A stretch of 60,438 nt of DNA from Sphingobacteriales bacterium. Its GTDB lineage: Bacteria; Bacteroidota; Bacteroidia; Sphingobacteriales; Sphingobacteriaceae. Of this stretch, positions 11,024 through 60,438 are shown in pieces. The notes below the pieces were generated by a model. That model did not search any database. It saw only the letters and a program-made list of their open reading frames with translations, and had not been told where the DNA came from. Within the stretch, counting starts at the first letter, position 1. The number at the start of each line of letters is the position of its first letter. The stretch spans positions 1 to 60,438 of the forward strand of contig JANXOD010000023.1 of the NCBI GenBank assembly GCA_025353765.1, read 5' to 3'. Made by a program: the position numbers and the translations under genes.

Positions 11024-11154
11024 TTACATATTTTTATGACGATAAAATACAATAATACAATGTATAACCGATATTAAGTTTCTATTGAAATAAATTTGTT
11101 TGTAACATTGTACAGAGTCCTGCTGTCAAACAAAAAGGATTTTATATTTAGACT

Positions 11155-12399: not shown

Positions 12400-12406
12400 T
12401 TTTTAT

Positions 12407-13144
12407 TTATAACAGTTCGTTCTGCAACTGATAATCTGTTAATAGTTTACGTACATAAGGCAAATGTAGCGACTGTTTTAAAGCATCCGCATGCCTTAAA
12501 TGATGCATATCACTGGCTATAAATTCAATCATCATATTATCTACCAATTCTTCAGCAATTTTCTGGGAAGCCTTTCCATAATATCCTGTTAAAGAAATGG
12601 TATTTAATTGAAAATAACATCCCGTTTCTTTTATCTTACGATAGTTTTCTATGGACCCAAAGAGGTATGGATAACGTTCTGGATGAGCGAGAAGTGGCTT
12701 ATAACCTTTATCTTTTATTTTATTGATAATATCATCAAGGTTTTTTGGATAATTAATGTACGACAGTTCAAACAACAGAAAACCGTCGCCCATGGTTAAC
12801 AGATTGCCCTTTTCAAGCTTATTCCCAAATGTTTCATCCAGATAGTATTCAGCAGCAGCTTCTATATGAATATCTATATTCTGCTTAACTAATTCTTCTC
12901 TTAAAAGGGCTAAACCAGCAACTATTGTTTCGGGCGTATTCCGATAATAATCGGCCATAATATGTGGCGTAGTAATTATTTTGCGAAAGCCTAAATCCAT
13001 CATCTGCCGAACTAAAACGATAGATTCCTGTACACTTTGGGCACCATCATCTATTCCAGGAATGATATGGGAATGAAGATCTACTCCAAGTTTAGAAAAA
13101 TCAATTCCGGGTTCTTTTGGTTTTGATTTAAATATATTGAACAT
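12407..13144 (-). CDS. CpsB/YwqE-type tyrosine phosphatase (PHP family)
   Basis: A 245-residue PHP-domain phosphoesterase. Metal ligands: D-L-H-S-H-I-I-P-G-I-D-D-G-A (22-35), T-T-P-H-I near 59-63, E-A-A-A-E-Y-Y near 98-104, L-L-A-H-P-E-R-Y near 155-162, and S-D-M-H-H near 215-219. Such manganese-dependent phosphatases dephosphorylate the tyrosine kinase that controls polysaccharide polymerisation and export. The kinase is not in the window. Its start overlaps the rmlB stop by one base, so it is translated with the nucleotide-sugar operon, which fits a role in capsule or exopolysaccharide control. Confidence 0.9.
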   Translation of the reverse strand: MFNIFKSKPKEPGIDFSKLGVDLHSHIIPGIDDGAQSVQESIVLVRQMMDLGFRKIITTPHIMADYYRNTPETIVAGLALLREELVKQNIDIHIEAAAEYYLDETFGNKLEKGNLLTMGDGFLLFELSYINYPKNLDDIINKIKDKGYKPLLAHPERYPYLFGSIENYRKIKETGCYFQLNTISLTGYYGKASQKIAEELVDNMMIEFIASDMHHLRHADALKQSLHLPYVRKLLTDYQLQNELL

Positions 13145-14238
13145 TAGCGATCTGTATATTGTGCCTGATAATAAGATTGATAGCTACCGGAGGTAACACT
13201 ATATAGCCATTCATCATTAGATAAATACCATTCTACTGTTTTTTCCAACCCTTCTTCAAATTGTAAACTTGGGGCCCAGCCTAACTCATTTTGAAGCTTG
13301 GTAGAGTCTATTGCATAACGCAGATCATGACCTGCACGATCTGTTACAAAGGTTATCAGTTTTTGGGAAGTGCCGGCATCATGCCCCAGCTTCTTATCCA
13401 TAATTTTACAAAGTAAATGAATAAGGTCAATATTTTTCCACTCGTTATGGCCACCCACATTATAAGTTGAACTGGATTTAGCTTGATGGAAAATTACATC
13501 AATAGCACGAGCATGGTCTTCCACCCAAAGCCAATCGCGAATATTTTCACCTTTCCCGTAAACCGGGATAGGATTATTGTTTTTAATGTTATTAATGGCC
13601 AAAGGAATTAACTTTTCCGGAAAATGATATGATCCATAATTATTAGAACAGTTTGATATCACTGTATTCAGACCATAAGTATCCTGATAAGCTCTTACAA
13701 AATGATCTGAACTTGCTTTTGATGCAGAATAAGGGCTGTGAGGATCATAAGCGGTTTTTTCTGTAAACATTCCTTCTTCGCCCAAAGTGCCATAAACTTC
13801 ATCTGTGGAAACATGGTAGAAACGGTTATTTACTAGATTATCTTTCCAATATTTTTTAGCAGCATTCAATAGATTTACTGTTCCCATAACATTGGTCATT
13901 ACAAAATCTAGCGGACTAGTAATGGAACGATCTACATGTGATTCTGCTGCCAAATGAATTACTGCATCGAATTTTTCCTGGGCAAAAAACTCATCAATAA
14001 AAGCGGCATCTACAATATCACCTTTTACAAAGCGATAATTTGATTCATTTTCAACATCCTTTAAATTTAGCAGATTTCCGGCATAAGTCAATTTATCCAA
14101 GTTTACAATTTGGTAATCCGGATAATTGCTTACAAACCGCCTTACTACATGCGAACCTATAAATCCGGCCCCGCCGGTGATGAGTATTTTTTTCAATCTT
14201 AATATAGATTTGAGATGTGAGACCTTACAATCTCGCAT
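13144..14238 (-). CDS. rmlB: dTDP-glucose 4,6-dehydratase
   Basis: A 364-residue extended SDR enzyme that makes dTDP-4-keto-6-deoxyglucose, the precursor of dTDP-rhamnose and other deoxysugars. Seen: G-G-A-G-F-I-G-S-H (NAD-binding), A-E-S-H-V-D-R-S, S-T-D-E-V-Y-G-T-L-G (catalytic Asp-Glu), and Y-S-A-S-K-A-S (Tyr-x-x-x-Lys). The ATG at 14238 adds an N-terminal extension not normal for the family. The natural start is probably the TTG at 14194-14196 (reading LKKILITGG). The extension is encoded by low-complexity repeat DNA. rmlA, C and D are not present here. The galE stop lies 5 bp upstream of the long start. Confidence 0.93.
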   Translation of the reverse strand: MRDCKVSHLKSILRLKKILITGGAGFIGSHVVRRFVSNYPDYQIVNLDKLTYAGNLLNLKDVENESNYRFVKGDIVDAAFIDEFFAQEKFDAVIHLAAESHVDRSITSPLDFVMTNVMGTVNLLNAAKKYWKDNLVNNRFYHVSTDEVYGTLGEEGMFTEKTAYDPHSPYSASKASSDHFVRAYQDTYGLNTVISNCSNNYGSYHFPEKLIPLAINNIKNNNPIPVYGKGENIRDWLWVEDHARAIDVIFHQAKSSSTYNVGGHNEWKNIDLIHLLCKIMDKKLGHDAGTSQKLITFVTDRAGHDLRYAIDSTKLQNELGWAPSLQFEEGLEKTVEWYLSNDEWLYSVTSGSYQSYYQAQYTDR

Positions 14239-14243: not shown

Positions 14244-15269
14244 TTACAATGAATTTTTCTGAATATATTTTTCCCATGCCCAGGCAGAGCTCGTCATTTC
14301 GTTAAGCCCTAATTCTGCTTTCCAGCCTAATTCTTTTTCTGCTTTTGATACATCACCGTAAATTTTCTCTATATCGCCTTCTCTTCGCGGTCCTATACGA
14401 TAATTCAGTTTTACACCACTTACGTTTTCAAAAGCCTGGATCACTTCTAAAACTGAACTTCCCCGGCCTGTGCCAATGTTATAAACGGAATATTGCTGTG
14501 AATAGATTTTATTTTCTAATAATTTTAAAGCTGCCACATGTGCTTTGGCTAGGTCTATTACATGAATATAATCCCTGATACAACTTCCATCGGGTGTGTT
14601 ATAATCATTGCCGTGAACTACAATTTCTCCCCGCTTTCCAATAGCAGACTGAGTTATAAAAGGCACTAAATTTTGGGGAACGCCTATAGGTAATTCACCA
14701 ATTAAAGCAGATGAATGGGCACCAACAGGATTAAAATATCTTAATGAAATAGCCTTTAAATTCTTATTTACAGACGCAACTTCCTGTAAAATTTTTTCAG
14801 AAACCTGTTTGGTATTTCCGTAAGGCGATTCTGCTTTTTTTACCCGAGCATCTTCTGTCACAGGCAATTTATCCGGCTGACCGTAAACTGTACAACTGGA
14901 TGAGAAAACAAAATTAACCTTACGGGATGTAAAGGCTTCGAGTAAATTGATAAGAGAATAAAAATTATTTCGATAATATTTTAAGGGCTTTTCAACAGAC
15001 TCTCCCACTGCTTTATACGCTGCGAAATGAATCACACCTTCAATATCGGGGTGCTGATGTATAAATTCAAGTGTTGCTTTTTCATCACACAAATCAAAAT
15101 CAAAAAATTCCGGACGAATACGAGTTATCTTTTCAATCTGATCCAAAATTTTAATGGATGAGTTGGAGAAGTTATCTATAATTACGGGTTTATACCCGGC
15201 GTTAACTAACTCTACTACCGTATGTGAACCAATATATCCGGTACCGCCGGTAATTAAAATCTTCTTCAT
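14244..15269 (-). CDS. galE: UDP-glucose 4-epimerase
   Basis: A 341-residue extended SDR enzyme interconverting UDP-glucose and UDP-galactose. Motifs: G-G-T-G-Y-I-G-S-H (7-15), V-I-D-N-F-S-N-S (NAD ribose binding), H-F-A-A-Y-K-A-V-G-E-S, S-S-S-C-T-V-Y-G, Y-G-N-T-K (the Tyr-x-x-x-Lys pair), and the substrate-side R-Y-F-N-P-V-G-A-H. Length is normal. It sits in a leftward run of nucleotide-sugar enzyme genes, so it probably supplies UDP-galactose for surface glycans. The start context is MKKILITGGTGYIG, which needs no correction. Confidence 0.96.
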   Translation of the reverse strand: MKKILITGGTGYIGSHTVVELVNAGYKPVIIDNFSNSSIKILDQIEKITRIRPEFFDFDLCDEKATLEFIHQHPDIEGVIHFAAYKAVGESVEKPLKYYRNNFYSLINLLEAFTSRKVNFVFSSSCTVYGQPDKLPVTEDARVKKAESPYGNTKQVSEKILQEVASVNKNLKAISLRYFNPVGAHSSALIGELPIGVPQNLVPFITQSAIGKRGEIVVHGNDYNTPDGSCIRDYIHVIDLAKAHVAALKLLENKIYSQQYSVYNIGTGRGSSVLEVIQAFENVSGVKLNYRIGPRREGDIEKIYGDVSKAEKELGWKAELGLNEMTSSAWAWEKYIQKNSL

Positions 15270-15287
15270 ATTATAACCTGTGTAGTA

Positions 15288-16373
15288 TCAAACTAAATGA
15301 GGTTTGTACCATATTTTTTTATCTGCATTAAACTCTTCAATTATTTTAGTATAAATCCTCAAATCATCAAAAGGTTTTTTAATATATACCGGGCTAAGTA
15401 CAGAACGGGCTAAAGGTATGTCAAATATACCTTCAGGATCTATAATTGCTATGTACATATATTTTTTATTAAATGATAAAAAAAGGGGCCGTTGTAGGCG
15501 TTCCTGCCATTCGGAGATTCTTTCCATAAATGTTGGCGTTAAAATATAACGGGCTTCGACCTGATCTGAACTGTAAACTGTAAATTTTTTATTAAAATCT
15601 GTATCTATAAGATCAACCACATTTTTTTCCTCGTCGTTTAGTCTTTGAAATATTTTATTGATAAACGGAATTTTTTGCTCCCAGGTGTTTGGCAAGACTA
15701 ATGTCCAGCTGGAAAGAGGCCTGTACAAATCAAGCTTGATAATTAATCCTTTAAATTCCTGGTCATACAGATTATTAGTGGGAGATAAAGATTTTAGAGA
15801 GCTGCGGAAAAAATTTATAACAATAAATACAAAACCAATTATAGGCACATTTAAGAATCGATTATATTTATTGGTTATCACATTTACATCCCATAATTCG
15901 CACTTAATTCCATCAATTTCTCCGCAAATAGTACCTTCGCTTAGGGTAAATAATGGCGCATTGTTTTCATTTTTAAAAAAACCAGTATCTGTCAACTCTT
16001 CGTTCGAAATCATTTTTTCAATAACATTAAACTCCGGGCAAACTGCTTTAGTTATTACACTGAATATTTTCTGCTGTGTATTTGAAATTACATCATACAA
16101 TTTACGGGCGTAAAGCCGACTTAAGATATAGGTGAATATTAAAATGACAGATAAAAAGAAAAGGGGGCTCATTAATCCAAGCATATTGGGTGGCATTTTA
16201 TCCTGAGGCCAATAACTAACAATGAATTGAATTGCAATGGGATAAACCACAGAAAGAGGCAATACTATCACCATACATGCTGCGGCAAGTTTCTTAAAAA
16301 ACAAATAAGAAATTCTTACTTTTTCTATTTGTTTAAGCTGTGGGGTTAATTGCTGATAAAGTTGGTCAATCAT
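15288..16373 (-). CDS. DUF3137 membrane protein, copy A
   Basis: A 361-residue protein with two transmembrane helices near the N-terminus (about 30-53 and 68-86) and a large cytoplasmic-looking domain containing the DUF3137 signature F-T-V-Y-S-S-D-Q-V-E-A-R-Y-I-L-T-P (about 264-280). It is paralogous to the next gene: both begin Q-L-Y-Q-Q-L-x-P-x-L-K, share the long segment FNKKFTVYSSDQVEARYIL, and end in D-K-K-I-W-Y-K-P-H-L. Function unknown. In many genomes DUF3137 genes neighbour lemA; here a lemA lies 13 kb away. Its place among sugar-nucleotide genes suggests a cell-envelope role, as an inference only. Confidence 0.8.
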   Translation of the reverse strand: MIDQLYQQLTPQLKQIEKVRISYLFFKKLAAACMVIVLPLSVVYPIAIQFIVSYWPQDKMPPNMLGLMSPLFFLSVILIFTYILSRLYARKLYDVISNTQQKIFSVITKAVCPEFNVIEKMISNEELTDTGFFKNENNAPLFTLSEGTICGEIDGIKCELWDVNVITNKYNRFLNVPIIGFVFIVINFFRSSLKSLSPTNNLYDQEFKGLIIKLDLYRPLSSWTLVLPNTWEQKIPFINKIFQRLNDEEKNVVDLIDTDFNKKFTVYSSDQVEARYILTPTFMERISEWQERLQRPLFLSFNKKYMYIAIIDPEGIFDIPLARSVLSPVYIKKPFDDLRIYTKIIEEFNADKKIWYKPHLV

Positions 16374-16407
16374 AATTAGATGTAATTATATTATAATGAT
16401 CATAGCA

Positions 16408-17511
16408 TTAAGTTAGATGAGGCTTGTACCATATTTTTTTATCTGTATTAAATTCTTCAATCATTTTACTAAAAATTTTTAAATCATTAAAGGGCTTTTC
16501 AATATTTGCCGGATCAAGTGCAGAACGGCTTAAGGGTATTTCAAATATACCTTCATGATCTATAATTGCCATATACAGACATTGTTCATTAAAAGATAAA
16601 AAAAGAGGTCGTTTTAGTTCTTCCTGCCATTCCGAAATTTTTTCCATAAATGTTGGCGTTAAAATATACCGGGCTTCAACCTGATCGGAACTATAAACTG
16701 TAAATTTCTTATTAAAATTGGTATCTGTAAGATCAACCACATTTTTTTCTTCATTATTAAATGTTTGCAGGGTCCTATTAGCAAATGAAAATTTTTGCTC
16801 CCAGCTATTTTGCAAAACTAATGTTCGGCCAGAAAGTGACTTGGGAAATTCAAGCTTTATAATCAATCCTTTAAATCCTTGGTCATACAAATCATTTTTA
16901 AAAAAAATTTTAAAATAACTAATAAAGAGATAAAATGTACTGAATAGGATTCCAAGTATCGGTATCATCATGAGCCGATAATATTTATTAGTAATAACAC
17001 TTACATCCCAAAGCTCAAAATTTAATTCATTTATTTCTCCATAAATAGTTCCTTTGCTTAAAGTAGTTAAAGGTGCATTGTTCTGCTCATTAAAAAAACC
17101 GGTATTTAAGATTTGTTGATTACTAATAATTTTTTTAATGACCCTGAGGCCTATACTTAACGAACCCGTGATAGAATTAAATATGCGTTGTTGTATATTA
17201 GATAGTATGCCAAAAAATATACCTGTAAAAAGCATACTCAAGGAGCCTGTAAAAAATAAAATCTTAGAAAAGCTGATTCTGTGTGAGTTATTTCTATTGA
17301 ACCACATAGTCCATTTTCCTATATTCATTGTTAATTGTTCAATAGGCTGGAGGCTAAAAAATAGATAAACAAAAATGAGATATATAAAAGAGAGCAATAT
17401 AAGTATCATACATGTTGCTCCCAGATTTTTAAAAAATAAATAAGGGATTCTTATTCTATTTAGTTTTTTAAGTTCAGGGAGTAATTGCTGATAAAGTTGT
17501 TCGGGTATCAA
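16408..17511 (-). CDS. DUF3137 membrane protein, copy B
   Basis: A 367-residue tandem paralogue of the preceding DUF3137 protein, 34 bp upstream on the same strand. It has the same two N-terminal helices (about 30-52 and 83-102), the same DUF3137 core with F-T-V-Y-S-S-D-Q-V-E-A-R-Y near residue 270, and the same terminal K-I-W-Y-K-P-H-L. The membrane region and the middle are more diverged than the core, so the duplication is not recent. It lies between copy A and the UDP-xylose synthase gene with ordinary spacing, and is probably co-transcribed with them. Biochemical role unknown. Confidence 0.8.
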   Translation of the reverse strand: MIPEQLYQQLLPELKKLNRIRIPYLFFKNLGATCMILILLSFIYLIFVYLFFSLQPIEQLTMNIGKWTMWFNRNNSHRISFSKILFFTGSLSMLFTGIFFGILSNIQQRIFNSITGSLSIGLRVIKKIISNQQILNTGFFNEQNNAPLTTLSKGTIYGEINELNFELWDVSVITNKYYRLMMIPILGILFSTFYLFISYFKIFFKNDLYDQGFKGLIIKLEFPKSLSGRTLVLQNSWEQKFSFANRTLQTFNNEEKNVVDLTDTNFNKKFTVYSSDQVEARYILTPTFMEKISEWQEELKRPLFLSFNEQCLYMAIIDHEGIFEIPLSRSALDPANIEKPFNDLKIFSKMIEEFNTDKKIWYKPHLT

Positions 17512-28170: not shown

Positions 28171-29751
28171 TTAGAAAGCCCTAATAGGGCGGGCCTTCGC
28201 TGTGCCAGTCTTAGGAACCGTATATGATAAAGAACCATTGTTAGATCCAAGAATCCATGCGCTATTATAGTCATTGCTATCTTCTGTAGAACTCCAATAA
28301 AATAAATTAGGAGGTAATCCTCCGATTAAATTCTGTTTACTGAACAATGTTTCTAACTGATTCTTTGATGGCAGAAACCAATCTGTAAAACCTCCTCCAG
28401 TATAGTATTTGCAAGTACTTGCAGCATAAGCAGCCTGTCCATATAAAGCCACTAGTTTATTTGTATTGAAGGAACCATCTGTAAGACTTACCGCACCAGT
28501 TGGAAAGTTTATGGAAGCCCATTTTACTTCACCTATATTAGGAGCATCCACAGGGGCAGCTATTAGGCCATGTGTTCCCGTATTATCTACATAAAAAACA
28601 GTACCTCCTGCATAAGCTGTGCCTTCAACAATTTTAATGATTAAATTAGCAGATATAGATCCTGTAGTAAAACTACCTGTAGCACCTTGAGTTGCTTTAA
28701 TGGTTGTGGTACCAAGCCCTTTAATGGTTACTGTATAACCAGTAACACTAGCAACAGCAGAATTGCTACTTGTAAATGTAAAAGGACCAGAACTATTGCT
28801 CTGTGGATCTGATAAAAAAAATGATGCATCTCCTAAATTATGTGATGCTACTATAAAATTAGTAATGGTTGGGGTTCCCACTGTGATTACTAAATTAGCA
28901 GTTACAAATCCCGTGGTAAAATTAGCTGTAGCAGCCTGAGTGGCTTTAATAGTTGAAGTACCAACTTTTAAAATAGTTACTTTATTAGTAGCACTAATAC
29001 TAGCTACTGTTGGATCACTACTTGTATAAGTAAAAGCACCATTACTATTGCTTGAAGGATCTGATAAAGTAAACGGTACATCTCCATATTTATGCGCTGC
29101 TATCGTAAAATTGGTAATTGTTGGAGTTCCAATTGCAATTACTAAATCAGCAGTTACAGATCCAGCCGTGTAATTGCCATTAGCAGCTTGAAGTGCTGTG
29201 ATGGTTGTTGTACCAACTCCTGTAATGGTTACTTGTGTACCTGTAATAGTAGCTACTGATTGATCACTACTAAGGTAAGCAAAGGAACCAGCACTGTTAC
29301 TCGTAGGAGCTACTAAATTGAATTTAGTACCAACTGTTTTAGTTACAGGAGCAACTGTAAAACCAGTAATTGATGGAGCTACTAAGCCGGGCGGTATAGC
29401 AGTAACATTTAAAGCAGCAGTTTTAGACCCTGATGAAAAATTACCATCAGCAGCTTGAGTTGCTGTAATAGTTGTAGTACCAACTGCAAGAATGTTTACT
29501 TTAGTACCACTAATTGTAGCGACCGCTACATTACTACTGATATAACTAAAAGCACCTTTACTATCACTTGTTGGTGAGGATAAATCAAACGAACCATCGT
29601 TTACAATATGTGTCGGAATAGTAAAGTCACCAATATTTGGCGTTTTTAATACTGCTGATAGATTTATAGATTTTTTCTTACAAGAAAGAGTAAGAGATGT
29701 GATTGAAAATAACATTATAATAATTAATGGGGGGGCAAATAGTTTTTTCAT
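28171..29751 (-). CDS. Lipoprotein with four Ig-like repeats and a DUF1566 domain
   Basis: A 526-residue surface protein. Lipoprotein signal with S-L-T-L-S-C at 19-24. Four tandem repeats of about 83 residues follow (about 37-372), each with a P-x-I-x-x-F start, S-N-S-x-G-x-F-x-Y-x-S-S, V-A-x-I/V-x-G and G-T-T-T-I-x-A-x-Q-A, resembling bacterial Ig-like (Big_2-type) modules. The C-terminal DUF1566 (Lcl) domain contains W-F-L-P-S-K-N-Q-L near 458-466, Y-W-S-S-T-E near 485-490 and R-P-I-R-A-F at the end. Adhesion or surface display is likely. The repeat copies are similar at DNA level, so copy number could vary. Confidence 0.85.
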   Translation of the reverse strand: MKKLFAPPLIIIMLFSITSLTLSCKKKSINLSAVLKTPNIGDFTIPTHIVNDGSFDLSSPTSDSKGAFSYISSNVAVATISGTKVNILAVGTTTITATQAADGNFSSGSKTAALNVTAIPPGLVAPSITGFTVAPVTKTVGTKFNLVAPTSNSAGSFAYLSSDQSVATITGTQVTITGVGTTTITALQAANGNYTAGSVTADLVIAIGTPTITNFTIAAHKYGDVPFTLSDPSSNSNGAFTYTSSDPTVASISATNKVTILKVGTSTIKATQAATANFTTGFVTANLVITVGTPTITNFIVASHNLGDASFFLSDPQSNSSGPFTFTSSNSAVASVTGYTVTIKGLGTTTIKATQGATGSFTTGSISANLIIKIVEGTAYAGGTVFYVDNTGTHGLIAAPVDAPNIGEVKWASINFPTGAVSLTDGSFNTNKLVALYGQAAYAASTCKYYTGGGFTDWFLPSKNQLETLFSKQNLIGGLPPNLFYWSSTEDSNDYNSAWILGSNNGSLSYTVPKTGTAKARPIRAF

Positions 29752-31044: not shown

Positions 31045-31267
31045 GCCAAAGGGAATTTTGCCTCCGCCATCGCCAGCTTTATCAGTGCCAACGGGAGTTT
31101 TACCTCCGCCATCGCTAGCTTTATCAGTGCCAACGGGAGTTTTGCCTCCGCCATCGCTAGTTTTGTCAGCGCCAACAGGAATTTTACCTCCGCCATCGCT
31201 AGTTTTGTCGGCGCCAACGGGAGTTTTGCCTCCGCCATCGCTAGTTTTGCCAGTGCCAACAGGAATT
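31045..31267. repeat. 42-bp minisatellite, five full units plus a partial
   Basis: Units start at 31045, 31087, 31129, 31171 and 31213, each 42 bp, with a partial sixth from 31255. All contain CCTCCGCCATCGC followed by AG-C/T-TTT. On the minus strand one frame repeats D-K-A-S-D-G-G-G-K-T-P-V-G-T and another repeats K-L-A-M-A-E-A-K-L-P-L-A-L. The first is in frame with the end of the acyl-CoA carboxylase gene but separated from it by two TAA stops. There is no usable start codon for a separate gene in that frame. Confidence 0.9.
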
Positions 31268-51343: not shown

Positions 51344-51955
51344 ATGAAGATTATTGCTATTGGACGTAATTATGCCGAACATGCTAAAGAACTAAATAAT
51401 CCTGTACCTGCCGTTCCGGTCATATTTATGAAACCGGATACGGCATTGTTAAAAGACAATAAACCCTTTTATCATCCGGAGTTTTCAGCAGATATTCATC
51501 ATGAGATTGAAGTTGTTATAAAGATCTCTAAAGAAGGGAAACATATAGCAGAAAAATTTGCTTCTGCTTATTATGATGAAATTGGCATTGGAATAGATTT
51601 TACAGCCCGGGATATTCAGCAAAAGCATAAAGAAAAAGGCCTGCCCTGGGAACTGGCCAAATCATTTGACAATTCGGCTCCAGTAAGTAAATTCATTCCC
51701 AAAACACAATTTCCTGATCTATATAATATAGATTTCCATTTGGAAGTGAATGGGAAAACTGTCCAGCAGGGAAATACCAAAGACTTATTATTCTCCTTTG
51801 AACGCATCATTGTTTTCGTTTCGCAATATATCACACTTAAAAAAGGTGACCTTATATTTACAGGAACCCCGGCCGGAGTTGGGAAAGTGAATATAGGCGA
51901 TCATCTGGCAGGTTATTTGACAGGGGAGAAATTATTGGATTTTTATGTCCGGTAA
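51344..51955 (+). CDS. Fumarylacetoacetate hydrolase family protein
   Basis: A 203-residue FAH-fold hydrolase: I-G-R-N-Y-A-E-H-A-K-E (7-17), F-M-K-P-D-T-A near 27-33, H-H-E-I-E-V-V-I (metal-binding Glu pair) near 47-54, G-I-G-I-D-F-T-A-R-D near 75-84, and I-F-T-G-T-P-A-G-V-G near 169-178. Small FAH proteins act as acylpyruvases or oxaloacetate decarboxylases. A -33 TTTTTG with a 19-bp spacer and a TATATTAG element lie upstream. The next gene starts within or just after its end. Confidence 0.92.
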   Translation: MKIIAIGRNYAEHAKELNNPVPAVPVIFMKPDTALLKDNKPFYHPEFSADIHHEIEVVIKISKEGKHIAEKFASAYYDEIGIGIDFTARDIQQKHKEKGLPWELAKSFDNSAPVSKFIPKTQFPDLYNIDFHLEVNGKTVQQGNTKDLLFSFERIIVFVSQYITLKKGDLIFTGTPAGVGKVNIGDHLAGYLTGEKLLDFYVR

Positions 51956-53684
51956 AATTCTAAAATTAACCATGTACAAAGCCTTCCTATCCATTTTAGC
52001 ACTTTTTACTTTCACCAATGCTTTGGCGCAGGAAATGATCAGCGGCAAAACTTATCCCAAAGATTATTTCAGGCCGCCTTTAGATATAGCTCCGGCTTTG
52101 GCTGCTTCCTTTGGCGAGATCAGAAGTAATCACTTTCATTCCGGCTTAGATTTCAGGACCCTGCAACGTGAAGGTTTACCAGTTTACGCTCCTGCGGATG
52201 GTTATATTTCCAGGCTAAGAATACAAAGCGGTGGTGGTGGGAATGCACTATACATCACGCATCCCAATGGATTTAGTACAGTTTATATGCACTTGCAGCG
52301 CTACAGTCCACGCATCGCTCAAATTGTTAAAAATTACCAATATCGTATCCAGGCTTTTGAGGTAGATTTCCCTTTATTGCCCATAGAGATCCCAGTTAAA
52401 AAAGGCGAAATCATTGCCTGGTCGGGGAATAGTGGAAGTTCGGGCGGGCCTCATTTACATTTTGAAATCAGGGATACTAATACACAGGAAACCATAAATC
52501 CCCAGCTATTTGGTATTGCTGTGCCTGATAAAATAAAGCCTGTTATTAACGGAATGTATGTCTATCGTACCAACGGACAGCCATTTAGCGAAAAAACGCC
52601 TAAACAATATTACCAGGTTAGCGGCAATGAAGGCAATTATACATTAAACCAGTCGCCGGTAATTAATTTAAGCGGTGAAGTAGGTTTTGGAATCATCACT
52701 ACAGATAGGAACTCGGCTTCTGCTAATCAAAATGGGGTATATTCCATCGAATTACAATTAGATAATAAAACCATTTATTCCTCAGTATGGGAGCGTTTCT
52801 TTTTTGACCATTCCAAGGCCATCAATTCACACTTAGATTATCCTGCACTTTTAACATCCGGAAAAAATATCCAGAAAAGTTTTGTCGAACCCGGAAATCC
52901 GCTTAAGCTATATAAAAATCTGGTCAATGCAGGGCTGATAGACATTAAAGATGAACAGATCCATAACCTTCAATATACGGTGAAAGATGTAGCAGGCAAT
53001 GCCAGTTTTTTAAACTTTAAGATCAAATTTAACCCGCAAGCTGTACTTACCGTGAAAGAACCGGCGGGTATCCCCTTCCCGTATAATAAAGACAATGAAT
53101 TTAAAACAGATGAAGTAAAAGTATCTATCCCGAAAAGTAATTTATATAGCGATATTAAATTTGTTTATTCTGTTTCGGCCAAACCTTTAGGCGGATTCTC
53201 TGCTTTACATCATATACATACTACCCTAATCCCCATTCATAGTTCTTATAATTTATGGATAAAACCCAATGCCGATTTGCCCGCAACCCTCTTGTCTAAG
53301 GCTTTAATTATAGATAATCGCGGTGTATCACAGGGAGGAAGTTATGATAATGGATATATTAAAGCAGGTATACGTTCATTCGGGAGTTTTTATGTGGCCA
53401 TAGATACGGTTGCACCTAAAATTACTCCTGTAAATATCACAGAAGGTAAAAATATGGCAGGCTTATCTAAAATCATATTGAAAATATCAGATAACCTCTC
53501 AGGAATCAGGTCCTTTACCGGCACTATAGACGGACAATGGGTTTTGATGGAATTTGATCCTAAAACTGCTACCTTGTGGCATACATTTGATGAGCGGACT
53601 CCACCGGGAAAACACGTTTTTAACCTAATGGTAAGCGATATGAAATCAAATACGAAAACAGTTAACATCAATTTTTATAAATAG
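51945..53684 (+). CDS. M23-family secreted metallopeptidase
   Basis: A 579-residue exported peptidase. The true start is probably Met10 (51972), which begins the signal peptide MYKAFLSILALFTFTNALAQ. The M23 zinc site is H-S-G-L-D (65-69) and H-L-H (170-172, in G-G-P-H-L-H-F-E). The long C-terminal part (about 185-579) is beta-rich, with Ig-like segments such as I-S-D-N-L-S-G-I near 525-532. M23 enzymes cleave peptidoglycan peptides in the periplasm. It overlaps the FAH gene if the first ATG is used, and bcp follows 3 bp after its stop. Confidence 0.93.
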   Translation: MSGKILKLTMYKAFLSILALFTFTNALAQEMISGKTYPKDYFRPPLDIAPALAASFGEIRSNHFHSGLDFRTLQREGLPVYAPADGYISRLRIQSGGGGNALYITHPNGFSTVYMHLQRYSPRIAQIVKNYQYRIQAFEVDFPLLPIEIPVKKGEIIAWSGNSGSSGGPHLHFEIRDTNTQETINPQLFGIAVPDKIKPVINGMYVYRTNGQPFSEKTPKQYYQVSGNEGNYTLNQSPVINLSGEVGFGIITTDRNSASANQNGVYSIELQLDNKTIYSSVWERFFFDHSKAINSHLDYPALLTSGKNIQKSFVEPGNPLKLYKNLVNAGLIDIKDEQIHNLQYTVKDVAGNASFLNFKIKFNPQAVLTVKEPAGIPFPYNKDNEFKTDEVKVSIPKSNLYSDIKFVYSVSAKPLGGFSALHHIHTTLIPIHSSYNLWIKPNADLPATLLSKALIIDNRGVSQGGSYDNGYIKAGIRSFGSFYVAIDTVAPKITPVNITEGKNMAGLSKIILKISDNLSGIRSFTGTIDGQWVLMEFDPKTATLWHTFDERTPPGKHVFNLMVSDMKSNTKTVNINFYK

Positions 53685-53687
53685 GAT

Positions 53688-54146
53688 ATGGCAGAACTAA
53701 AAGAAGGTGATCAGGCTCCGGCATTCACCTCAAAAGATCAGAACGGAAACACGGTTTCTTTAAGTAATTACACGGGTAAGAATGTAATTCTATACTTCTA
53801 CCCTAAAGATGATACGCCCGGCTGTACGGCCGAAGCATGCAGTTTCAGGGATAATTACCAATCTCTTTTAAAGCATGGCTTCGAGGTGATCGGGGTAAGT
53901 ACTGATGATGAAAAATCACATCAAAAATTCGTGACTAAATACGAACTTCCTTTCACGCTGATATCAGACACAGATAAAAAAATTGTAGAAGCATACGGCG
54001 TTTGGGTTGAGAAAAACATGTATGGCAAAAAATATATGGGTACGGCACGTAAAACCTTTTTAATTGGTCCTGATGGAACCCTTAAAAAGATCATTGAAAA
54101 GGTAGATACCAAAAATTCTTCGCAACAGGTATTAGACCTGGTTTAA
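53688..54146 (+). CDS. bcp: Thioredoxin-dependent thiol peroxidase (peroxiredoxin Bcp)
   Basis: A 152-residue PrxQ/Bcp peroxiredoxin. Peroxidatic Cys46 in D-D-T-P-G-C-T-A-E-A-C (41-51) and resolving Cys51, with the E-A-C-S-F-R-D context of this class. G-V-S-T-D-D-E-K-S-H-Q-K-F follows. It reduces organic peroxides with thioredoxin. It is probably in an operon with the FAH and M23 genes. Its second part and downstream region are duplicated about 6 kb further on, at 59795-60295, where the copy is broken. Confidence 0.96.
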   Translation: MAELKEGDQAPAFTSKDQNGNTVSLSNYTGKNVILYFYPKDDTPGCTAEACSFRDNYQSLLKHGFEVIGVSTDDEKSHQKFVTKYELPFTLISDTDKKIVEAYGVWVEKNMYGKKYMGTARKTFLIGPDGTLKKIIEKVDTKNSSQQVLDLV

Positions 54147-54331
54147 TTGCTTAAAGCTTTTCCGGAGTTTTAGACTTTGGAAAAGCTTATTTCCTTCTCT
54201 TTACTTCGGGCAGTCCCGCTTTTTATTTCAAATCCTCATTTCGCTTTGCTGCATTGCGGGTTTTCCACGCCAATCGGGTTTAGGGTTTAACGGGCTCTGC
54301 TTCTAAATGTAAGAATCTAAATTAAGAAGAA
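53811..54331 (+). repeat. Left copy of a direct duplication of bcp 3' half and downstream DNA
   Basis: From codon 42 of bcp through its terminator and about 140 bp of gene-free DNA, this region is repeated in direct orientation at 59795-60295. Both copies share the terminator hairpin and the phrase CGGGTTTAGGGTTTAACGGG. In the copied coding part downstream of the frameshift the sequences differ at ten sites, all third codon positions. The non-coding part is more diverged. Confidence 0.9.
54154..54188 (+). terminator. Terminator of the FAH-M23-bcp transcript
   Basis: A perfect 10-bp stem AAGCTTTTCC/GGAAAAGCTT with a 15-nt loop, 8 bp after the bcp stop. The same hairpin is present in the duplicate copy at 60133-60167. 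Confidence 0.7.
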
Positions 54332-54437
54332 GATATCTGTATCAACGTTACATCTTTTACTCTTTCCCCGTCTTCATAACCTGCGTCCCCCTTATATTGG
54401 ATTGGTTTATTGCCTTAGGAATCTGTTCCGTCTCTAA
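54189..54437. other. Gene-free stretch in the left duplication copy
   Basis: No gene is seen. The segment up to about 54331 is shared with the right-hand copy. It contains a phrase (CCCGCTTTTT...TTTCGCTTTGCTGCATT...GGGTTTTCC) that looks like the extragenic repeats I recall from Bacteroidota, not verified. The rest up to the sorting-domain gene shows nothing recognisable. Confidence 0.4.
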
Positions 54438-54908
54438 TTATTCCTTCATTATAACAGAGATCTTTTTCATGTTATTATACTGTATTACACATCGGTAAAC
54501 TCCGGATTTGGTTTCCCCTCCTTTGTCATTCAGGCCATCCCAAATAGTACTCTGGCTGCCTCTGCAGCCTCCACCAGTTAAAGCTCTTACAAGTTGGCCA
54601 TTGATATCCATGATCTGAATATTCACCTGTTCATCTCCGGGGATACTGTAATTGATGCTGATTTCCTTATTGAATGGATTGGGATAGGCTGGGTACACTT
54701 CCAACCCTTCCCGCTTCAGTTCCTTACTCTTGGAACCATGCCTGATTATCTTCACAGCCGGAACTCCTTTCACATAGATCACATCCGGGCTGGCCGGTTT
54801 GCTCCGAACTTCGCTTTTATCTTTTTCTTCTCTGGTTTGAGCAGATACATAATTCAGGGTCAGTATCCCCAGTATTCCTAAAATTAAATACCTTTTTATA
54901 TGTTTCAT
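54438..54908 (-). CDS. Small T9SS sorting-domain protein
   Basis: A 156-residue exported protein: signal peptide to about residue 23 (I-L-T-L-N-Y-V-S-A-Q), a charged 45-residue segment, then a sorting or FlgD-like Ig domain with E-V-Y-P-A-Y-P-N-P-F-N-K-E-I-S-I-N-Y-S-I (about 71-90), I-Q-I-M-D-I-N-G-Q-L-V-R-A-L, W-D-G-L-N-D-K-G-G, S-G-V-Y-R-C and the terminal K-K-I-S-V-I-M. It is nearly a lone sorting domain. It lies 90 bp downstream of the 1538-residue protein on the same strand, which itself ends without such a domain, so the two may act together. Confidence 0.82.
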   Translation of the reverse strand: MKHIKRYLILGILGILTLNYVSAQTREEKDKSEVRSKPASPDVIYVKGVPAVKIIRHGSKSKELKREGLEVYPAYPNPFNKEISINYSIPGDEQVNIQIMDINGQLVRALTGGGCRGSQSTIWDGLNDKGGETKSGVYRCVIQYNNMKKISVIMKE

Positions 54909-54998
54909 GATTTTTCTTTTTTTGTCATTTTAAGTTAAAAACAGACTTTAAATAAGCCCTTAAAGGATTCCCCCATTTTTATATTCATTTTATTTATC

Positions 54999-57900
54999 TC
55001 ATGGAATCGTAATGGTAACAAATGTGGAGTGGAAAACTCCTGCGACGAGCGGAGTCTGCTGTGGAAGAGTAGTGCCATCCAGATCTATATTCACATTAGG
55101 AGTACAGGTTGCTGTACTTCCCGAACTCATGGACACCAATTCGAACAGATAATCACCCGGGGGCAAGTCTCCATTTACAATCCAGCCGATTACTGTGGTG
55201 TAGTCACCCCACACGATGTCCTCATCTACTGGCGCCTTAAAGCTTCCATTGTTATCATACCCCATCATATATGTATTAGTCACTAAAGACCCTATAGGAC
55301 CCTGTTCATTTTCATATATTAGCTTCCCTGTGGAAACCTGAGTGATTTGATATATATCATATCCCGCCCCTTGATAAGTACCACCATTACACTTCCAGGT
55401 AATGGTAATGGCATGGGTACCTGCCGGTGCAGGATCCGGATCGTCTTTTTTCTTATTGGGATCGGGTGGAGTATGAAAAAGACGCAGTTGGCCTTGTCCT
55501 TCCAATCCCGTACCCTCACGCCCTAAGGGAATAAATTGGGCATAATAATCATGATCCCAGAACAGGGTGCCGGGGATAGTGAACTCATACTGGCCCGAGG
55601 TTGCGGGAAAGGTTTGAAGTTCCCCTGTATGAGGCGGAATGATGAAGGGTACATTACCCGGGGTAAGAAACGTAGTGGGTTGACCCTGTAAACCCATGGT
55701 AAACTTAAAGCCACCCGGTGCAAACGGACAATCTACCCGATAGGTTACACTCTGATTAGTTACATCGGTCACTGAAATCACTTCATTTTCTTTGGGAGTA
55801 AGGATAGTAGCCATGCCCGGCAGCACATCATAAGAGGATCTGGCCGGTTCGCCCGGAAAATCCAGCAGGGCCTCTTTCTTGTAAGCCGTTACCTGCCATT
55901 CATAACCATCGGCACTACTGGCTAAATCTTTTAAAGGCAGAGTACTGGTACCGCTATATACCCGGTCGAAGCCCATGATCCCATTGCCCAGACTAACCAA
56001 AGCCGTCTTGTATACCACTTCTATCATGTCCGGAGCATCCGGATTCAGCGTTCCTCTATGCCCCAGGATGATTTTATAATAATCAGCACCAGGCACTTCC
56101 TGCCAGGAAAAATGAATCTGGGGTTGTAAAGCCGCTACGGAAGAAAATTCTCTCAATTTGGGTTTGGTGGATTTATAATCATATGTCAAGGAACGGACAT
56201 CACTGGTGCTGCCCTCATTTAATACAACCAGATCTTCATTGGTTAAGGGAGGACCTAAAGGAGTCACCCGCCAGAAATAGGTATTGTTCCCGTCAGGCGA
56301 AGGGCCCGGATTAAAAAGCTTTAGGGTACCATAATAATTGGGGTCTGATTCGGGAACCAGTTTGCTGAAATCAGTTTGATTCTTAGAGTACTCTACCCGA
56401 TAGCCATCGGCATTTACAGCTTCCTGCCATTTAGTGAAAAAAATGGGTGCAATTTCTATATTAGTATTGTAATGGAATAGATCTATTTTCTTTTTATTTT
56501 CTGGAAAAATCAAACTACTGGTCACCTCATCGGTCTTGAAATCCATGCGGGTGGCCAGACTAAAGGTCTTTTGCCCGAATACATCCTCCGGGCCCATGGC
56601 CCGTACCGCCCAGCCGTAATCTGTTTCGGGTTTCAGTACCAGGTAATCGGGCTTGGTGGTGGGGTTAAACTGCGTAGCTCCTGGTTTGGGGGCATAAGCA
56701 CGCTGAATAAAAGGCTCTTTCTCATCTTGATGAAAAATATTCAGAATATAATACTGGATCTCAGATCCGACCACATCGGCTTTGGTAGCCCAGTGAAAAG
56801 CGGGCCCCCAGGGATATGGAGTCTCGATTTGAGCTTTATCTATATCCCGTCCATCTGTGGTGAAGGAACGGACGTTCGTGCCCAGAGACAGTTGAAACTG
56901 CAATTCAGCACAATCTGTAGGGCTTAGACCAAAATGACACATATCAAAATCGGTAGTGCGTACTCTCCAGTAATATTTGGTACCTGTTTGCAGGTTCAGG
57001 GAGGAAACCCGCAGTGTGCGTACTCCATTATTATCTAATTGGGTATCCTTGTCACGGGTTAGATTTTTAATGGTATGGATTGGGAATTTGCCTTTGAAGG
57101 TTCCATCAACTGAGATATCCACTTCCCATCCTTTCTCAAAATCTGGATAAAGGATCTCTTTTTTCAAACCGATTGGACCATTTAATGGCCAGGGGTTGAT
57201 CTCTACTTCTTGATCTTTAGGGCTGGATGCCAGGAGTTCTTCCGGAGAAGGGCCCACACCGATGGCATAAAAAGCTTCCTGAACGGCATGTAATTCTGGA
57301 GGGGTTGTTGCAGCAGCCTCAGCGGCTTTACGCAAACTGAGGAAATCGGTCACTTCGCCCGGATTGGAATTCATCACGGCAGCCCAGAGTATCTCTTCAG
57401 CCTCTCCTTTACCAATGCTGGTTACGGAATACATCGGCCGGGACAGATCATTATCCAGATGGCCTGTTTTACCTTCGGATAAAATATAAAACCAGAAGTT
57501 CAATAAGCTGGCATTTGCTACTGGGTCAGCCGCTAATTCATCGTAAAGTTCACCCTTATAATAAATTGGCTGTTTCCTGGATTTGGGGTCTGAAAAACTG
57601 CGCAGGTAATCGTTCCCATTAAATAGATCTTCACCAATCGTCCAGACGGTAGGTTTACTCTGGGCAGTAAGCTCCTTGTTTTTTATTTGAAGTCCCAAAA
57701 TATCTCCGAGGCCTTTACAAATGATCTCGGCTTCGCTCGCCGGATCGGGTTTTAATTTAAGATAAGCTGCTGCATAGCCGATATTGGAACCCACCAGATC
57801 CATACTCACGGCCGGCCGGGGGTTACCAGGATCTCCGTCATAATCATAATAGAAGGCCAGATCATCAGGGTTAAAACCAGGTATTTTTACATCCTGCTGC

Positions 57901-59615
57901 AGGTAGGATTTGATGGGAAGCACTCCCTGACCGTCTATACCGATAAAGGTATGGTTAGCATATAGATAACGGGCCGTTTGCTCACTGGCAAAATGAACCG
58001 ATACTGCTGCTGCAGAGCGGGCTTTATCATTATATAAACTATATATTTGATTTTGATCAGCATCCATGGCCTTTTCTAGATCACCATCAGCATTGATATA
58101 TTGAGTTTCAATACCTGGCATTGTAGCGGTTGGGTCAGATTTTAACTCAGTAACAGGAAATGTAGCCTGGTCTCCTTTGATAGTACCTGTTAACTCCGTG
58201 CCATCAAAACCAACCGAATTATTGTACTGGCTTTTCCCGGACAAGCCACCTTTAGGTAAAGGATTTGTGGGGGCATCTTCATAGTTAGCTGGCCATAACC
58301 CAACTGCAAACAGTGCATTATGGATAGTTACATAACGTGAAGTCCCATATTTATATTCTTTTTTTGCTATACGTAAAGCGGACTCTGCCCACGTATCAAA
58401 GCCAGTAATTAAGGGTGCTTCGGTAGGATCTGTATAAACTTTAAAAAGAAACTTACTAGCTTCTTCTAAAGCGAAAAAAGGATCACTATCTAAAGGATTA
58501 ACTCGACTGTAAGGCCTAAGATCATTTTCATCAATATGCCCTGACCAACCATTAGCAGCTTTATAGAGCCAACTTAATATAACTGTTCCATTTAAATGGT
58601 TAATATATTTATACATCGAATTTGACAATATCTCATCATAAGAATTGGGATTATAATTTTTTCCCAAATAAGTAGCTGGAAAATTATTTCCTTTAAGATT
58701 AGAAAGAATAATATCCTTACCTGTTGCCTCTTCCGGATCATTTAATACCCATGTTATGGGCAGGTTATTGTCAAGTCTATAATAATTATCTGCTAGTAAT
58801 CCCATCTCATAAGCAAACCCTTCCTCTAATGCACCTATTTGTTGGTTTTGTAAAACACTTAAATTTTTAGAAGGCTTAAGAAAATAGGAGTTATTTAATA
58901 TGGCATGCCCCATTTCATGGCCCACTATTTCTAAACCTACATGTGGAATACCGTTATTTACCCCAAAACTAAATCGATTCAGTTTAGAATTATAAGAAGC
59001 AGCTCCAGGAAAATTTTGCCTAAGAAAGCCTACAATAGGCTTAGTATTAGTATTATCTATGCCAGTCCATGCATATAAATTTTTATTGACGTTCACAACG
59101 TATTGCATACCCCAAAAAACACTCACCGCCATTTCACTTGTAAAGGGAGCATTATTTTTAAAGCTAAATTTTGGATCTGTAGTGGATGACTGAAGAAGGG
59201 TATTGGTTATCAAAGGAAAAGGAAGATCAGGCTGGGGAAATGGTCCTATTTCATCCGTAAATATATTTACACCCAACGGTGAGGAAGGGTCTTCGGCTGT
59301 CACCAATATAGGTGGCTTTGCGTTGGGATCAAAAACAGGAGGAAGATAACTTCCGTTATATAATACAAGTGCATACTCCGGTGGAAATGGGGTGCCTGGA
59401 GGAATAAAATCATATTGATAGGCATCAAAGATTACATTCTTGATGTAATACCCATCTGCTCTAACATTAATAAGGTGAGGGTTATACATAGGGCCAAAGT
59501 CAGATAAAGAAATTTGGGCATATGCCTCTGTGTGAAGTAATAAAAAGGTGAATATCACCCAATTAATGAGAAACAGCTTTTTAATGCCTGTTGAGAAAGT
59601 AAATATTTTTATCAT
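54999..59615 (-). CDS. Giant secreted protein with two tandem thermolysin-like (M4) domains
   Basis: A 1538-residue protein: signal peptide (to about 34, ending T-E-A-Y-A-Q), first M4-like domain (about 150-440), second M4-like domain (about 535-790), then fibronectin-III/Ig-like modules (about 800-1420) and a terminal beta domain. Domain 1 keeps the catalytic set: G-H-E-M-G-H-A-I (H233, E234, H237), Glu in G-A-L-E-E-G-F (264/265), and H340 in Y-I-N-H-L-N-G. Domain 2 keeps the M4 scaffold (H-F-A-S-E-Q-T-A-R-Y-L, W-T-I-G-E-D-L-F, L-R-S-F-S-D-P, F-Y-I-L-S-E-G) but has S610, N611 and Y614 in place of H, E and H, and V699 in place of the late His. No T9SS sorting domain is seen at its end. Confidence 0.82.
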   Translation of the reverse strand: MIKIFTFSTGIKKLFLINWVIFTFLLLHTEAYAQISLSDFGPMYNPHLINVRADGYYIKNVIFDAYQYDFIPPGTPFPPEYALVLYNGSYLPPVFDPNAKPPILVTAEDPSSPLGVNIFTDEIGPFPQPDLPFPLITNTLLQSSTTDPKFSFKNNAPFTSEMAVSVFWGMQYVVNVNKNLYAWTGIDNTNTKPIVGFLRQNFPGAASYNSKLNRFSFGVNNGIPHVGLEIVGHEMGHAILNNSYFLKPSKNLSVLQNQQIGALEEGFAYEMGLLADNYYRLDNNLPITWVLNDPEEATGKDIILSNLKGNNFPATYLGKNYNPNSYDEILSNSMYKYINHLNGTVILSWLYKAANGWSGHIDENDLRPYSRVNPLDSDPFFALEEASKFLFKVYTDPTEAPLITGFDTWAESALRIAKKEYKYGTSRYVTIHNALFAVGLWPANYEDAPTNPLPKGGLSGKSQYNNSVGFDGTELTGTIKGDQATFPVTELKSDPTATMPGIETQYINADGDLEKAMDADQNQIYSLYNDKARSAAAVSVHFASEQTARYLYANHTFIGIDGQGVLPIKSYLQQDVKIPGFNPDDLAFYYDYDGDPGNPRPAVSMDLVGSNIGYAAAYLKLKPDPASEAEIICKGLGDILGLQIKNKELTAQSKPTVWTIGEDLFNGNDYLRSFSDPKSRKQPIYYKGELYDELAADPVANASLLNFWFYILSEGKTGHLDNDLSRPMYSVTSIGKGEAEEILWAAVMNSNPGEVTDFLSLRKAAEAAATTPPELHAVQEAFYAIGVGPSPEELLASSPKDQEVEINPWPLNGPIGLKKEILYPDFEKGWEVDISVDGTFKGKFPIHTIKNLTRDKDTQLDNNGVRTLRVSSLNLQTGTKYYWRVRTTDFDMCHFGLSPTDCAELQFQLSLGTNVRSFTTDGRDIDKAQIETPYPWGPAFHWATKADVVGSEIQYYILNIFHQDEKEPFIQRAYAPKPGATQFNPTTKPDYLVLKPETDYGWAVRAMGPEDVFGQKTFSLATRMDFKTDEVTSSLIFPENKKKIDLFHYNTNIEIAPIFFTKWQEAVNADGYRVEYSKNQTDFSKLVPESDPNYYGTLKLFNPGPSPDGNNTYFWRVTPLGPPLTNEDLVVLNEGSTSDVRSLTYDYKSTKPKLREFSSVAALQPQIHFSWQEVPGADYYKIILGHRGTLNPDAPDMIEVVYKTALVSLGNGIMGFDRVYSGTSTLPLKDLASSADGYEWQVTAYKKEALLDFPGEPARSSYDVLPGMATILTPKENEVISVTDVTNQSVTYRVDCPFAPGGFKFTMGLQGQPTTFLTPGNVPFIIPPHTGELQTFPATSGQYEFTIPGTLFWDHDYYAQFIPLGREGTGLEGQGQLRLFHTPPDPNKKKDDPDPAPAGTHAITITWKCNGGTYQGAGYDIYQITQVSTGKLIYENEQGPIGSLVTNTYMMGYDNNGSFKAPVDEDIVWGDYTTVIGWIVNGDLPPGDYLFELVSMSSGSTATCTPNVNIDLDGTTLPQQTPLVAGVFHSTFVTITIP

Positions 59616-59696
59616 ATTATTAATATTATAAGGAGTATGATATTATTAAGAAACAAAACTTTCATTTAAAATTAAGAATATATAATTTATCTTAAA

Positions 59697-59734
59697 TATC
59701 TCGAAATTAAATTGCTTTTATTGACTTCGAGATA
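59697..59734. promoter_or_regulatory. 9-bp perfect inverted repeat upstream of the giant protease-like gene
   Basis: TATCTCGAA (59697-59705) and TTCGAGATA (59726-59734) with a 20-bp spacer, 82 bp upstream of the start codon. It could be a protein-binding site or an mRNA 5' hairpin. No clear TAnnTTTG element lies next to it. It sits between the gene and the broken bcp copy. Confidence 0.4.
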
Positions 59735-59794
59735 AAATATTTTCTTTGTAACAATGTTTTTACAATGCTGGATGAGTAGGTTTACACAAATCCG

Positions 59795-60295
59795 GATACG
59801 CCCGGCTGTACGTACGAAACATGCAGTTTCAGGGATAATTATCAATCTCCTTTATGGCCTCGAGGTGATCGGGGTAAGCACTGATGATGAAAAATCACAT
59901 CAAAAATTCGTGACTAAGTACGAACTTCCCTTCACGCTGATATCAGACACAGATAAAAAAATTGTAGAAGCGTACGGTGTTTGGGTTGAAAAAAACATGT
60001 ATGGCAAAAAATATATGGGCACGGCACGTAAAACCTTCTTAATTGGCCCCGATGGAACCCTTAAAAAGATCATTGAAAAGGTAGATACCAAAAATTCTTC
60101 GCAACAGGTATTAGACCTGGTTTAATTGCTTAAAGCTTTTCCGGAGTTTTAGACTTTGGAAAAGCTTATTTCCTTCCTTTCTAATTTGGGTAGTCCCGCT
60201 TTTTGTTTCAAATCCTCATTCCGCTTTGCTGCACTCCGGGTTTTACACGCTAATCGGGTTTAGGGTTTAACGGGCTCTGCTTCTAAATTAAGAAG
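59795..60295 (+). pseudogene. bcp: 5'-truncated, frameshifted copy of bcp (right duplication copy)
   Basis: A copy of bcp starting at the codon for Asp42, with no sequence for residues 1-41. The peroxidatic motif P-G-C-T is kept, but two Ala of the following segment are changed to Tyr and Thr. A net 5-bp deletion just before the equivalent of E-V-I-G-V-S breaks the frame. From there to the stop at 60125 the encoded 87 residues are identical to the intact protein apart from the junction residue, despite ten nucleotide differences, all at third positions. The downstream terminator and gene-free DNA are also duplicated to about 60295. A 123-codon open frame from 59754 starts in unrelated upstream DNA and is not a functional peroxiredoxin. 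Confidence 0.88.
60133..60167 (+). terminator. Duplicated bcp terminator hairpin
   Basis: The same 10-bp stem AAGCTTTTCC/GGAAAAGCTT as at 54154-54188, 8 bp after the stop of the broken bcp copy. Confidence 0.6.
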
Positions 60296-60296
60296 T

Positions 60297-60438
60297 CATA
60301 CTTTTTATATCAAGCGCCATACTTTTTATATCAAGCGCCATACTTTTTATATCAAGCGCCATACTTTTTATATCAAGCGCCATACTTTTTATATCAAGCG
60401 CCATACTTTTTATATCAAGCGCCATACTTTTTATATCA
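60297..60438. repeat. 21-bp perfect tandem array running off the window end
   Basis: Six identical 21-bp units (each starts CATACTTTTTATATC and ends AAGCGC) at 60297, 60318, 60339, 60360, 60381 and 60402, plus 16 bases of a seventh at 60423-60438. There are no spacers. The period is a multiple of three. On the minus strand one frame is open and repeats M-A-L-D-I-K-S, ending M-T-S-stop at the left border. All three plus-strand frames are also open. The array begins directly after the duplicated bcp region. Confidence 0.95.

Follow-up and report, generated by a model that had tools for sequence, protein, structure and literature searches.

A startless second copy of the bcp 3' half beyond a protease cassette in a Sphingobacteriales genome probably reflects two alleles of one locus united in one chromosome

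Partial duplication of a target gene has been observed during conjugation in E. coli, where a PCR product indicating a partial lacZ duplication was obtained from 56 of 60 Lac- clones and the duplications measured 109-950 bp in the 14 clones that were sequenced. They are explained there by a single crossover with a circle from which a portion of the homology was missing, which was the commoner event in that experiment (PMC3240628). At the site of prophage e14 in E. coli K-12, the two icd alleles are given as differing by 12 changes, 10 of which are synonymous (PMC4759930). For the effector-immunity arrays of the type VI secretion system (T6SS) in Vibrio cholerae, sequential displacement via a homologous anchor has been proposed, and the same paper cites a like displacement idea for Rhs loci (PMC5361080). 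Merodiploids resulting from transformation are likewise known (PMC3784515).

Here, we describe an arrangement of this known kind, of which e14/icd and the single-crossover duplications are examples, in a Sphingobacteriales genome. The window, meaning the whole stretch of DNA that was analysed, is the complete contig C41 with a length of 60438 bp. An intact bcp gene is followed by a two-gene cassette (cassette A) and by a startless 3' end of a second bcp, hereafter bcp' (Table 1). As in the single-crossover duplications (PMC3240628), a partial duplication of the target gene flanks an insert, and the sizes match; however, that study concerned laboratory conjugation with a defined plasmid, whereas at bcp the end product alone is visible. 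The locus also resembles e14/icd in having the full gene on one side, a displaced 3' end on the other and differences that are nearly all synonymous. Yet e14 is a prophage whose excision was placed in 11-bp direct repeats (PMC4759930), whereas at bcp no integrase is seen, the repeat of ~500 bp reaches beyond the gene and the insert consists of two chromosomal genes. With the T6SS arrays, as described in PMC5361080, the model that we favour for bcp shares the insertion of a new module by means of an anchor, the old module being pushed downstream as a remnant. In contrast to those arrays, the anchor would be the end of a housekeeping gene, the modules are M4 protease genes with a type IX secretion system (T9SS) sorting-domain gene, the array has just two modules, inferred across a gap, and no toxin or immunity role is indicated. 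A literature search on displaced gene fragments yielded no paper, and one on the expansion of T9SS gene families returned nothing related, as judged by title and the start of the abstract. The mechanism is already known, and the setting alone is new.

Table 1 Coordinates of features at the bcp locus in the window
Feature	Position	Strand	Evidence or description
M23 peptidase gene, conserved upstream neighbour of bcp	51945..53684	+	Pfam M23
bcp, intact; thioredoxin-dependent peroxiredoxin, BCP/PrxQ type	53688..54146	+	AhpC-TSA 1.2e-44; NF006960
Left copy of the repeat	53811..54330	+	from bcp codon 42 through the stop codon, with terminator hairpin and intergenic repeat
Terminator-like hairpin 3' of bcp	54154..54188	+	16-pair stem; -20.3 kcal/mol; z -4.7 and -5.0
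One 21-bp unit of minisatellite type, 3' of the left copy	54340..54358	+	exact match to unit
Small gene with T9SS type A sorting domain	54438..54908	-	TIGR04183 3.1e-8, over cut-off
Large gene of cassette A, 1538 aa, M4 (thermolysin-like) metallopeptidase	54999..59615	-	PF01447, PF02868 over cut-off
AT-rich DNA upstream of the large gene, up to the joint with bcp codon 42	59616..59794		
Open frame of 123 codons, continuing across joint and deletion into the frame of bcp	59754..60125	+	ORF list; AhpC-TSA
Right copy of the repeat	59795..60294	+	startless bcp fragment, 5-bp deletion, terminator hairpin, intergenic repeat
21-bp tandem array at the contig end	60297..60438	+	6.8 copies, 100% identical

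The block of about 500 bp occurs twice in direct orientation, at 53811-54309 and 59795-60288, with a start-to-start spacing of 5979-5984 and 93.3% identity over 506 aligned columns. The 25 substitutions across 53811-54309 comprise 20 transitions and 5 transversions. Their spacing along the repeat is uneven (P 0.01 for the longest gap), with six in 53811-53882, ten in 53883-54071, none in 54072-54200 and nine in 54201-54309. The right copy has a 5-bp deletion opposite 53870-53874, and small alignment gaps of one to two bases lie at 54198-54201 and at 54309. The longest stretch common to both copies, 126 identical bp at 54072-54197, could in principle allow RecA to excise the ~6-kb cassette. At the joint (59793-59795), DNA upstream of the large cassette gene is fused to bcp codon 42, and no similarity was found between the DNA left of 59795 and the DNA left of 53811. 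A partial copy of the target gene stands in direct orientation on the far side of the insert, whose other side was joined without long homology.

The protein encoded by the intact bcp scored 167.4 bits against the NCBIfam model NF006960 (curated cut-off 140). Codon comparison of the two copies over 87 codons (53883-54143) revealed ten differences, every one of them at a third position and synonymous. These represent 10 of 55.3 silent sites in the last 87 codons (pS 0.18, dS about 0.21), and the chance that all ten changes would be silent is 1.7e-5 if only transitions are considered and 2.3e-6 with a kappa of 4. Across the whole coding overlap there are 11 silent and 5 amino-acid-changing bases. 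All five of the latter fall in the first 72 bp (A48Y, A50T, L60P, F65L), together with one silent change and the 5-bp deletion. Three of the replacements (A48Y, in which two neighbouring bases changed, A50T and L60P) and the silent change in Y57 lie between the joint and the deletion; F65L follows six bases past the deletion, and from codon 66 the differences are purely synonymous. The density of nonsynonymous bases near the joint (5 in 57 sites) differs from that in the remainder (0 in 206; Fisher 0.0004), as does the type of change between the first part and the last 87 codons (Fisher 0.0014), both tests counting bases of which two changed ones are adjacent. The right-copy residues at codons 48 and 50 occur in none of 43 aligned rows from relatives and that at codon 65 in 1 of the 43, a comparison in which codon 60 was left out, genome G015 was entered twice and the two underlying collections may overlap.

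Even decay of a dead copy was considered and rejected, as the density in the first part predicts ~18 amino-acid changes in the rest and none was seen. The ten silent changes out of ten and the identical terminator hairpin indicate that both copies were functional during divergence. Divergence is present both at silent sites (10 of 55) and in the distal noncoding DNA (9 of 109). This supports divergence between two functional alleles, as opposed to divergence of a gene from a decaying copy. When we attempted to polarise the ten silent sites, relatives varied at every one of them, and the majority base sided with the left copy at some sites and with the right copy at others, so that no direction follows.

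An earlier note on this DNA had described a direct ~0.5-kb duplication of the bcp 3' half bracketing the cassette, a right copy lacking its start and having a net 5-bp deletion, ten third-position synonymous differences in 87 codons, and divergence of the two copies while both were under selection as proteins; the alignment and the chance calculation bear this out. Its statement that only synonymous changes lie past the frameshift holds from codon 66 but is broken at codon 65, and the alignment that it had proposed as a check revealed no nonsynonymous difference in the last 87 codons but five such bases beside the joint. The homology that it had put at ~140 bp beyond the stop does run past the terminator, but its length is about 165-170 bp.

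The hairpin 3' of bcp recurs with identical sequence at 60133-60167 in the right copy, and the stretch 54147-54200 contains one single-base gap and no substitution. The intergenic repeat 3' of bcp has a 79%-identical piece on contig C24. In the whole window, two matches to the 21-bp unit with at most three mismatches were found against 0.09 expected, the one after the left copy being exact; considering how few were expected, the homology of the copies probably continues into the minisatellite unit. Apart from the bcp block, the 21-bp array was the only repeat reported in 52000-60438. The right copy begins 644 bp before the contig end, and C41 stops ~150 bp past it. Since the contig ends inside the 21-bp array, the DNA beyond the right copy is absent from the assembly. 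Outside C41, the unit (at most two mismatches) was found only on C37 (array at 1664-1870) and C35 (single unit at 19204), on neither of them at the contig end, and variants of it form arrays at C27:166083-166186 and C20:264253-264314. On C37, an open frame runs through this dispersed minisatellite, which there gives a repeat of seven residues (MALDIKS). Further repeats were noticed elsewhere: a 0.7-kb direct duplication with 76% identity in the window (15283-15988 and 16403-17105), tandem repeats of about 252 bp and 42 bp (window 28642-29612 and 31045-31267), and, at locus L125 on C35, two ~3-kb stretches that are 71% identical to each other (10826-13850 and 14411-17482), the first lying largely in an 872-codon frame that by eye resembles an outer-membrane receptor.

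The small cassette gene has 156 codons and encodes a protein with a T9SS sorting signal; its N-terminus resembles a signal peptide by eye. The large protein scored 34.9 bits against PF01447 (cut-off 22.4), contains an HEMGH motif, a long C-terminal part and, by eye, a signal peptide, and probably acts as a secreted zinc protease. Within the 2.83-Mb genome, its family occupies 13 loci, on C41, C16, C13 (three), C33, C38 (two), C20 (two), C28, C6 and C37, with a remnant on C24 as the fourteenth. HExxH was present in 12 of the 13 other family frames longer than 250 aa, the exception being a C-terminal piece on C23, which may belong to a family locus cut by a contig end. As the motif is present in all 12 loci besides C41, these represent separate N-terminal halves. 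Elsewhere in the genome there are 13 more matches to the small gene, some of which comprise just the sorting domain of longer frames, and 7 of the 13 adjoin the C23 piece or a locus of the large gene. N-terminal parts of family genes are cut off by seven contig ends (C13:1, C33:1, C38:1, C38:60023, C20:1, C37:258621 and C24:1), of which five fall within residues 957-972 of the large protein in the window. Near these ends, short stretches are near-identical between some copies (for example 134 bp at 97% for C38/C37), and the matching C-terminal halves are mostly absent from the assembly.

Among relatives, none of 19 same-genus and none of 5 same-family genomes yielded a member, whereas weak matches (28-33%) came from 3 of 16 same-class genomes. 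In a larger draw from the taxonomic family (399 genomes with the window's own, two candidates scored per genome), it occurred in 5 of the 398 other genomes at 28-34% identity. No stretch in viral contigs matched six exact peptide patterns from the cassette. By these comparisons, the M4-protease cassette family appears peculiar to the lineage and less ordinary than the repeat arrangement. Both flanks were available at five further family loci (C16, C20:239777, C28, C6 and C13:30021), and none of these has a bracketing repeat of at least 60 bp (E 1e-8), the remaining loci being at or near contig ends; such repeats are therefore not the general route by which the family spread.

To place the locus in its genomic context, we compared bcp loci from 20 of 24 genus and family relatives, leaving out G013 and G014 (distant matches only) as well as G022 and G023 (63-64% proteins). 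An M23 peptidase gene lies upstream of bcp at all 20 loci, within ~70 bp at 19 of them and ~660 bp off at L097. Downstream of bcp, a transketolase gene was found at 15 loci and a PD40/OmpA gene at two (G015 and G012), with neither of them within the flank (up to 1.5 kb) at the remaining three. The gene order in G015 and G012 is bcp, PD40, PorP/SprF, ..., transketolase. In the window's genome, PD40, PorP/SprF and transketolase genes stand colinear with these at the left end of C24. Before PD40, C24 begins with a frameshifted relative of the cassette protease, referred to here as the cassette B remnant. Large protein A and this remnant share 39% identity over 198 residues and are barely alignable as DNA, and the upstream regions of the two large genes have only short AT-rich matches in common. 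We infer the order M23 - bcp - cassette A - bcp' - array - gap - cassette B remnant - PD40, in which the junction rests on synteny because the gap between C41 and C24 is unassembled. In this order, the right copy would probably face PD40, PorP/SprF and transketolase, the ancestral neighbours. Two possible links between C41 and C24 failed: no contig starts with the 21-bp array, C35 and C37 holding the unit internally only, and of contigs that might supply missing C-terminal halves only C23 starts with such a piece, which is assignable to no locus. Sorting-domain matches also occur near contig ends of C42, C35 and C27. In the relative G005, a tyrosine integrase gene directly follows bcp (L190, G005:C37, 7254-8375), so that the 3' side of bcp may be a recurrent insertion point.

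The earlier note had reasoned that the same arrangement in relatives would speak against a recent import. Among the matches listed for 40 relatives, there was no high-identity partial second bcp, and none of the 24 genus and family genomes contained the cassette protein. Its suggestion that a bcp allele matching the right copy might be found elsewhere failed: there was none in 399 genomes, the window's own included, and the nearest bcp outside the window's genome was 78% identical. These genomes were drawn evenly from the larger family, one per species, with two candidates scored in each; several distant genomes gave two bcp matches, of which the second was left out, and genomes very close to the window's own may be absent from the set. 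Neither a second strain of the species nor a donor allele was found in this set with its one genome per species.

Together, we consider it probable that bcp and bcp' are two alleles of one locus from diverged strains, united in one chromosome by one-sided recombination. Incoming DNA from a related strain would pair with the resident chromosome through homology on one side, where the bcp repeat, or else DNA to its left, may have served as the anchor. The opposite side would join without homology, fusing the DNA upstream of large gene A to codon 42 of the second bcp. The product would be an intact bcp, cassette A and a startless bcp' 3' end with its own downstream region, that is, the minisatellite, the cassette B remnant and PD40. 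Alternatively, a circular molecule missing some of bcp could have been integrated by one crossover, giving the same structure; the linear route and the truncated circle yield the same end product. The two strains would have carried different cassettes (A and B) at the place between bcp and PD40. A and B are far more diverged from each other than bcp is from bcp', which argues that they did not arise with the bcp repeat.

The earlier note had taken the right copy to be an import from a related strain. Recombination between related strains fits our results, but as the right copy probably lies towards the ancestral neighbours, it could just as well be the resident gene end, displaced when the left copy was imported; the import may be the left side (bcp and cassette A) or, equally, the right side (bcp' and cassette B). 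Several observations weigh against the union of two alleles, namely the lack of a second strain or donor allele in the comparison set, the synteny-based link across the gap between C41 and C24, the uneven substitutions along the repeat, and the amino-acid cluster beside the joint, which the model explains only if mutagenic joining or retention of a product from the 123-codon frame is added. The linear route faces the further objection that true homology-facilitated illegitimate events were rare in the conjugation experiment and were predicted to give a deletion and not a duplication (PMC3240628); compared with ordinary homologous recombination, their frequency is put lower by several orders of magnitude (PMC5361080).

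A wider proposal, that the bcp-PD40 interval is a stacking site for lineage-specific, rapidly diversifying secreted M4 metalloproteases, seems to us doubtful. Strains would in that case swap cassettes by anchoring on the bcp 3' end, and each illegitimate event would leave a displaced bcp end as a scar tallying past imports. Such scars may be likened to the orphan immunity genes in T6SS arrays.

The cluster of amino-acid changes beside the joint raises the question of whether bcp' is instead an ancient duplicate of local origin whose product has been kept. In that case, the genome would have duplicated its own bcp 3' half in the distant past, and the frame of 123 codons would be translated and selected, so that the out-of-frame stretch beside the joint drifts and the part in the bcp frame stays under protein selection. 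Such a history accounts for the clean 87 codons as well as the upstream cluster and the 5-bp deletion, and the frame is indeed open through the joint. However, the match of its product to the AhpC-TSA profile is limited to positions 59-123, and the fragment does not have the CTAEAC segment with its two cysteines in the bcp frame. Protein selection also leaves the identical terminator unexplained, a sigma-70 consensus scan was near chance (22 versus 18.0 in shuffles), and no like high-identity partial frame was present among the matches listed for 40 relatives. We regard this explanation as unlikely.

Considering that the right copy starts so close to the contig end and that many contigs of the genome end in family genes, the bcp end of a second strain could have been joined onto the end of C41 during assembly or binning. 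This, too, appears improbable, as completeness is 99.79 and contamination 0. No repeat in 52000-60438 spans the joint, and no overlap that could mislead an assembler was therefore seen in that region, although one could be missing from the assembly.

An even less likely origin is site-specific integration of the e14/icd type, by which an element supplied its own bcp 3' end and displaced the old one, its integrase having since been lost or lying within the gap. The mostly synonymous differences between the e14/icd alleles (PMC4759930) and the integrase gene directly after bcp in G005 are in line with it. No integrase was found, however, among the open reading frames of 48.0-60.4 kb or of C24:1-14 kb, and the four PF00589 matches of the genome sit on C6, C38, C29 and C37. 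Furthermore, the repeat passes the gene end, the terminator and the intergenic repeat towards the minisatellite, and the visible insert consists of two genes of a dispersed chromosomal family. Finally, a plain tandem duplication that spans bcp codon 42 up to and including the large gene, with divergence afterwards, would account for a pair of bcp ends and a pair of family members in direct order (one of the latter across the gap) and for a joint linking the large gene's upstream region to bcp, but it is highly improbable and was rejected in its simple form because the duplicated parts are unequally diverged (93% DNA identity for bcp and bcp' versus 39% protein identity over 198 residues for large A and B).

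If two alleles were indeed united here, the locus would be a readable scar of gene exchange in a lineage of Bacteroidota, in which the silent differences date the split of the alleles independently of the event that joined them. Should further strains confirm this, an expanded family of secreted proteases can add a member beside an old one without replacing it.
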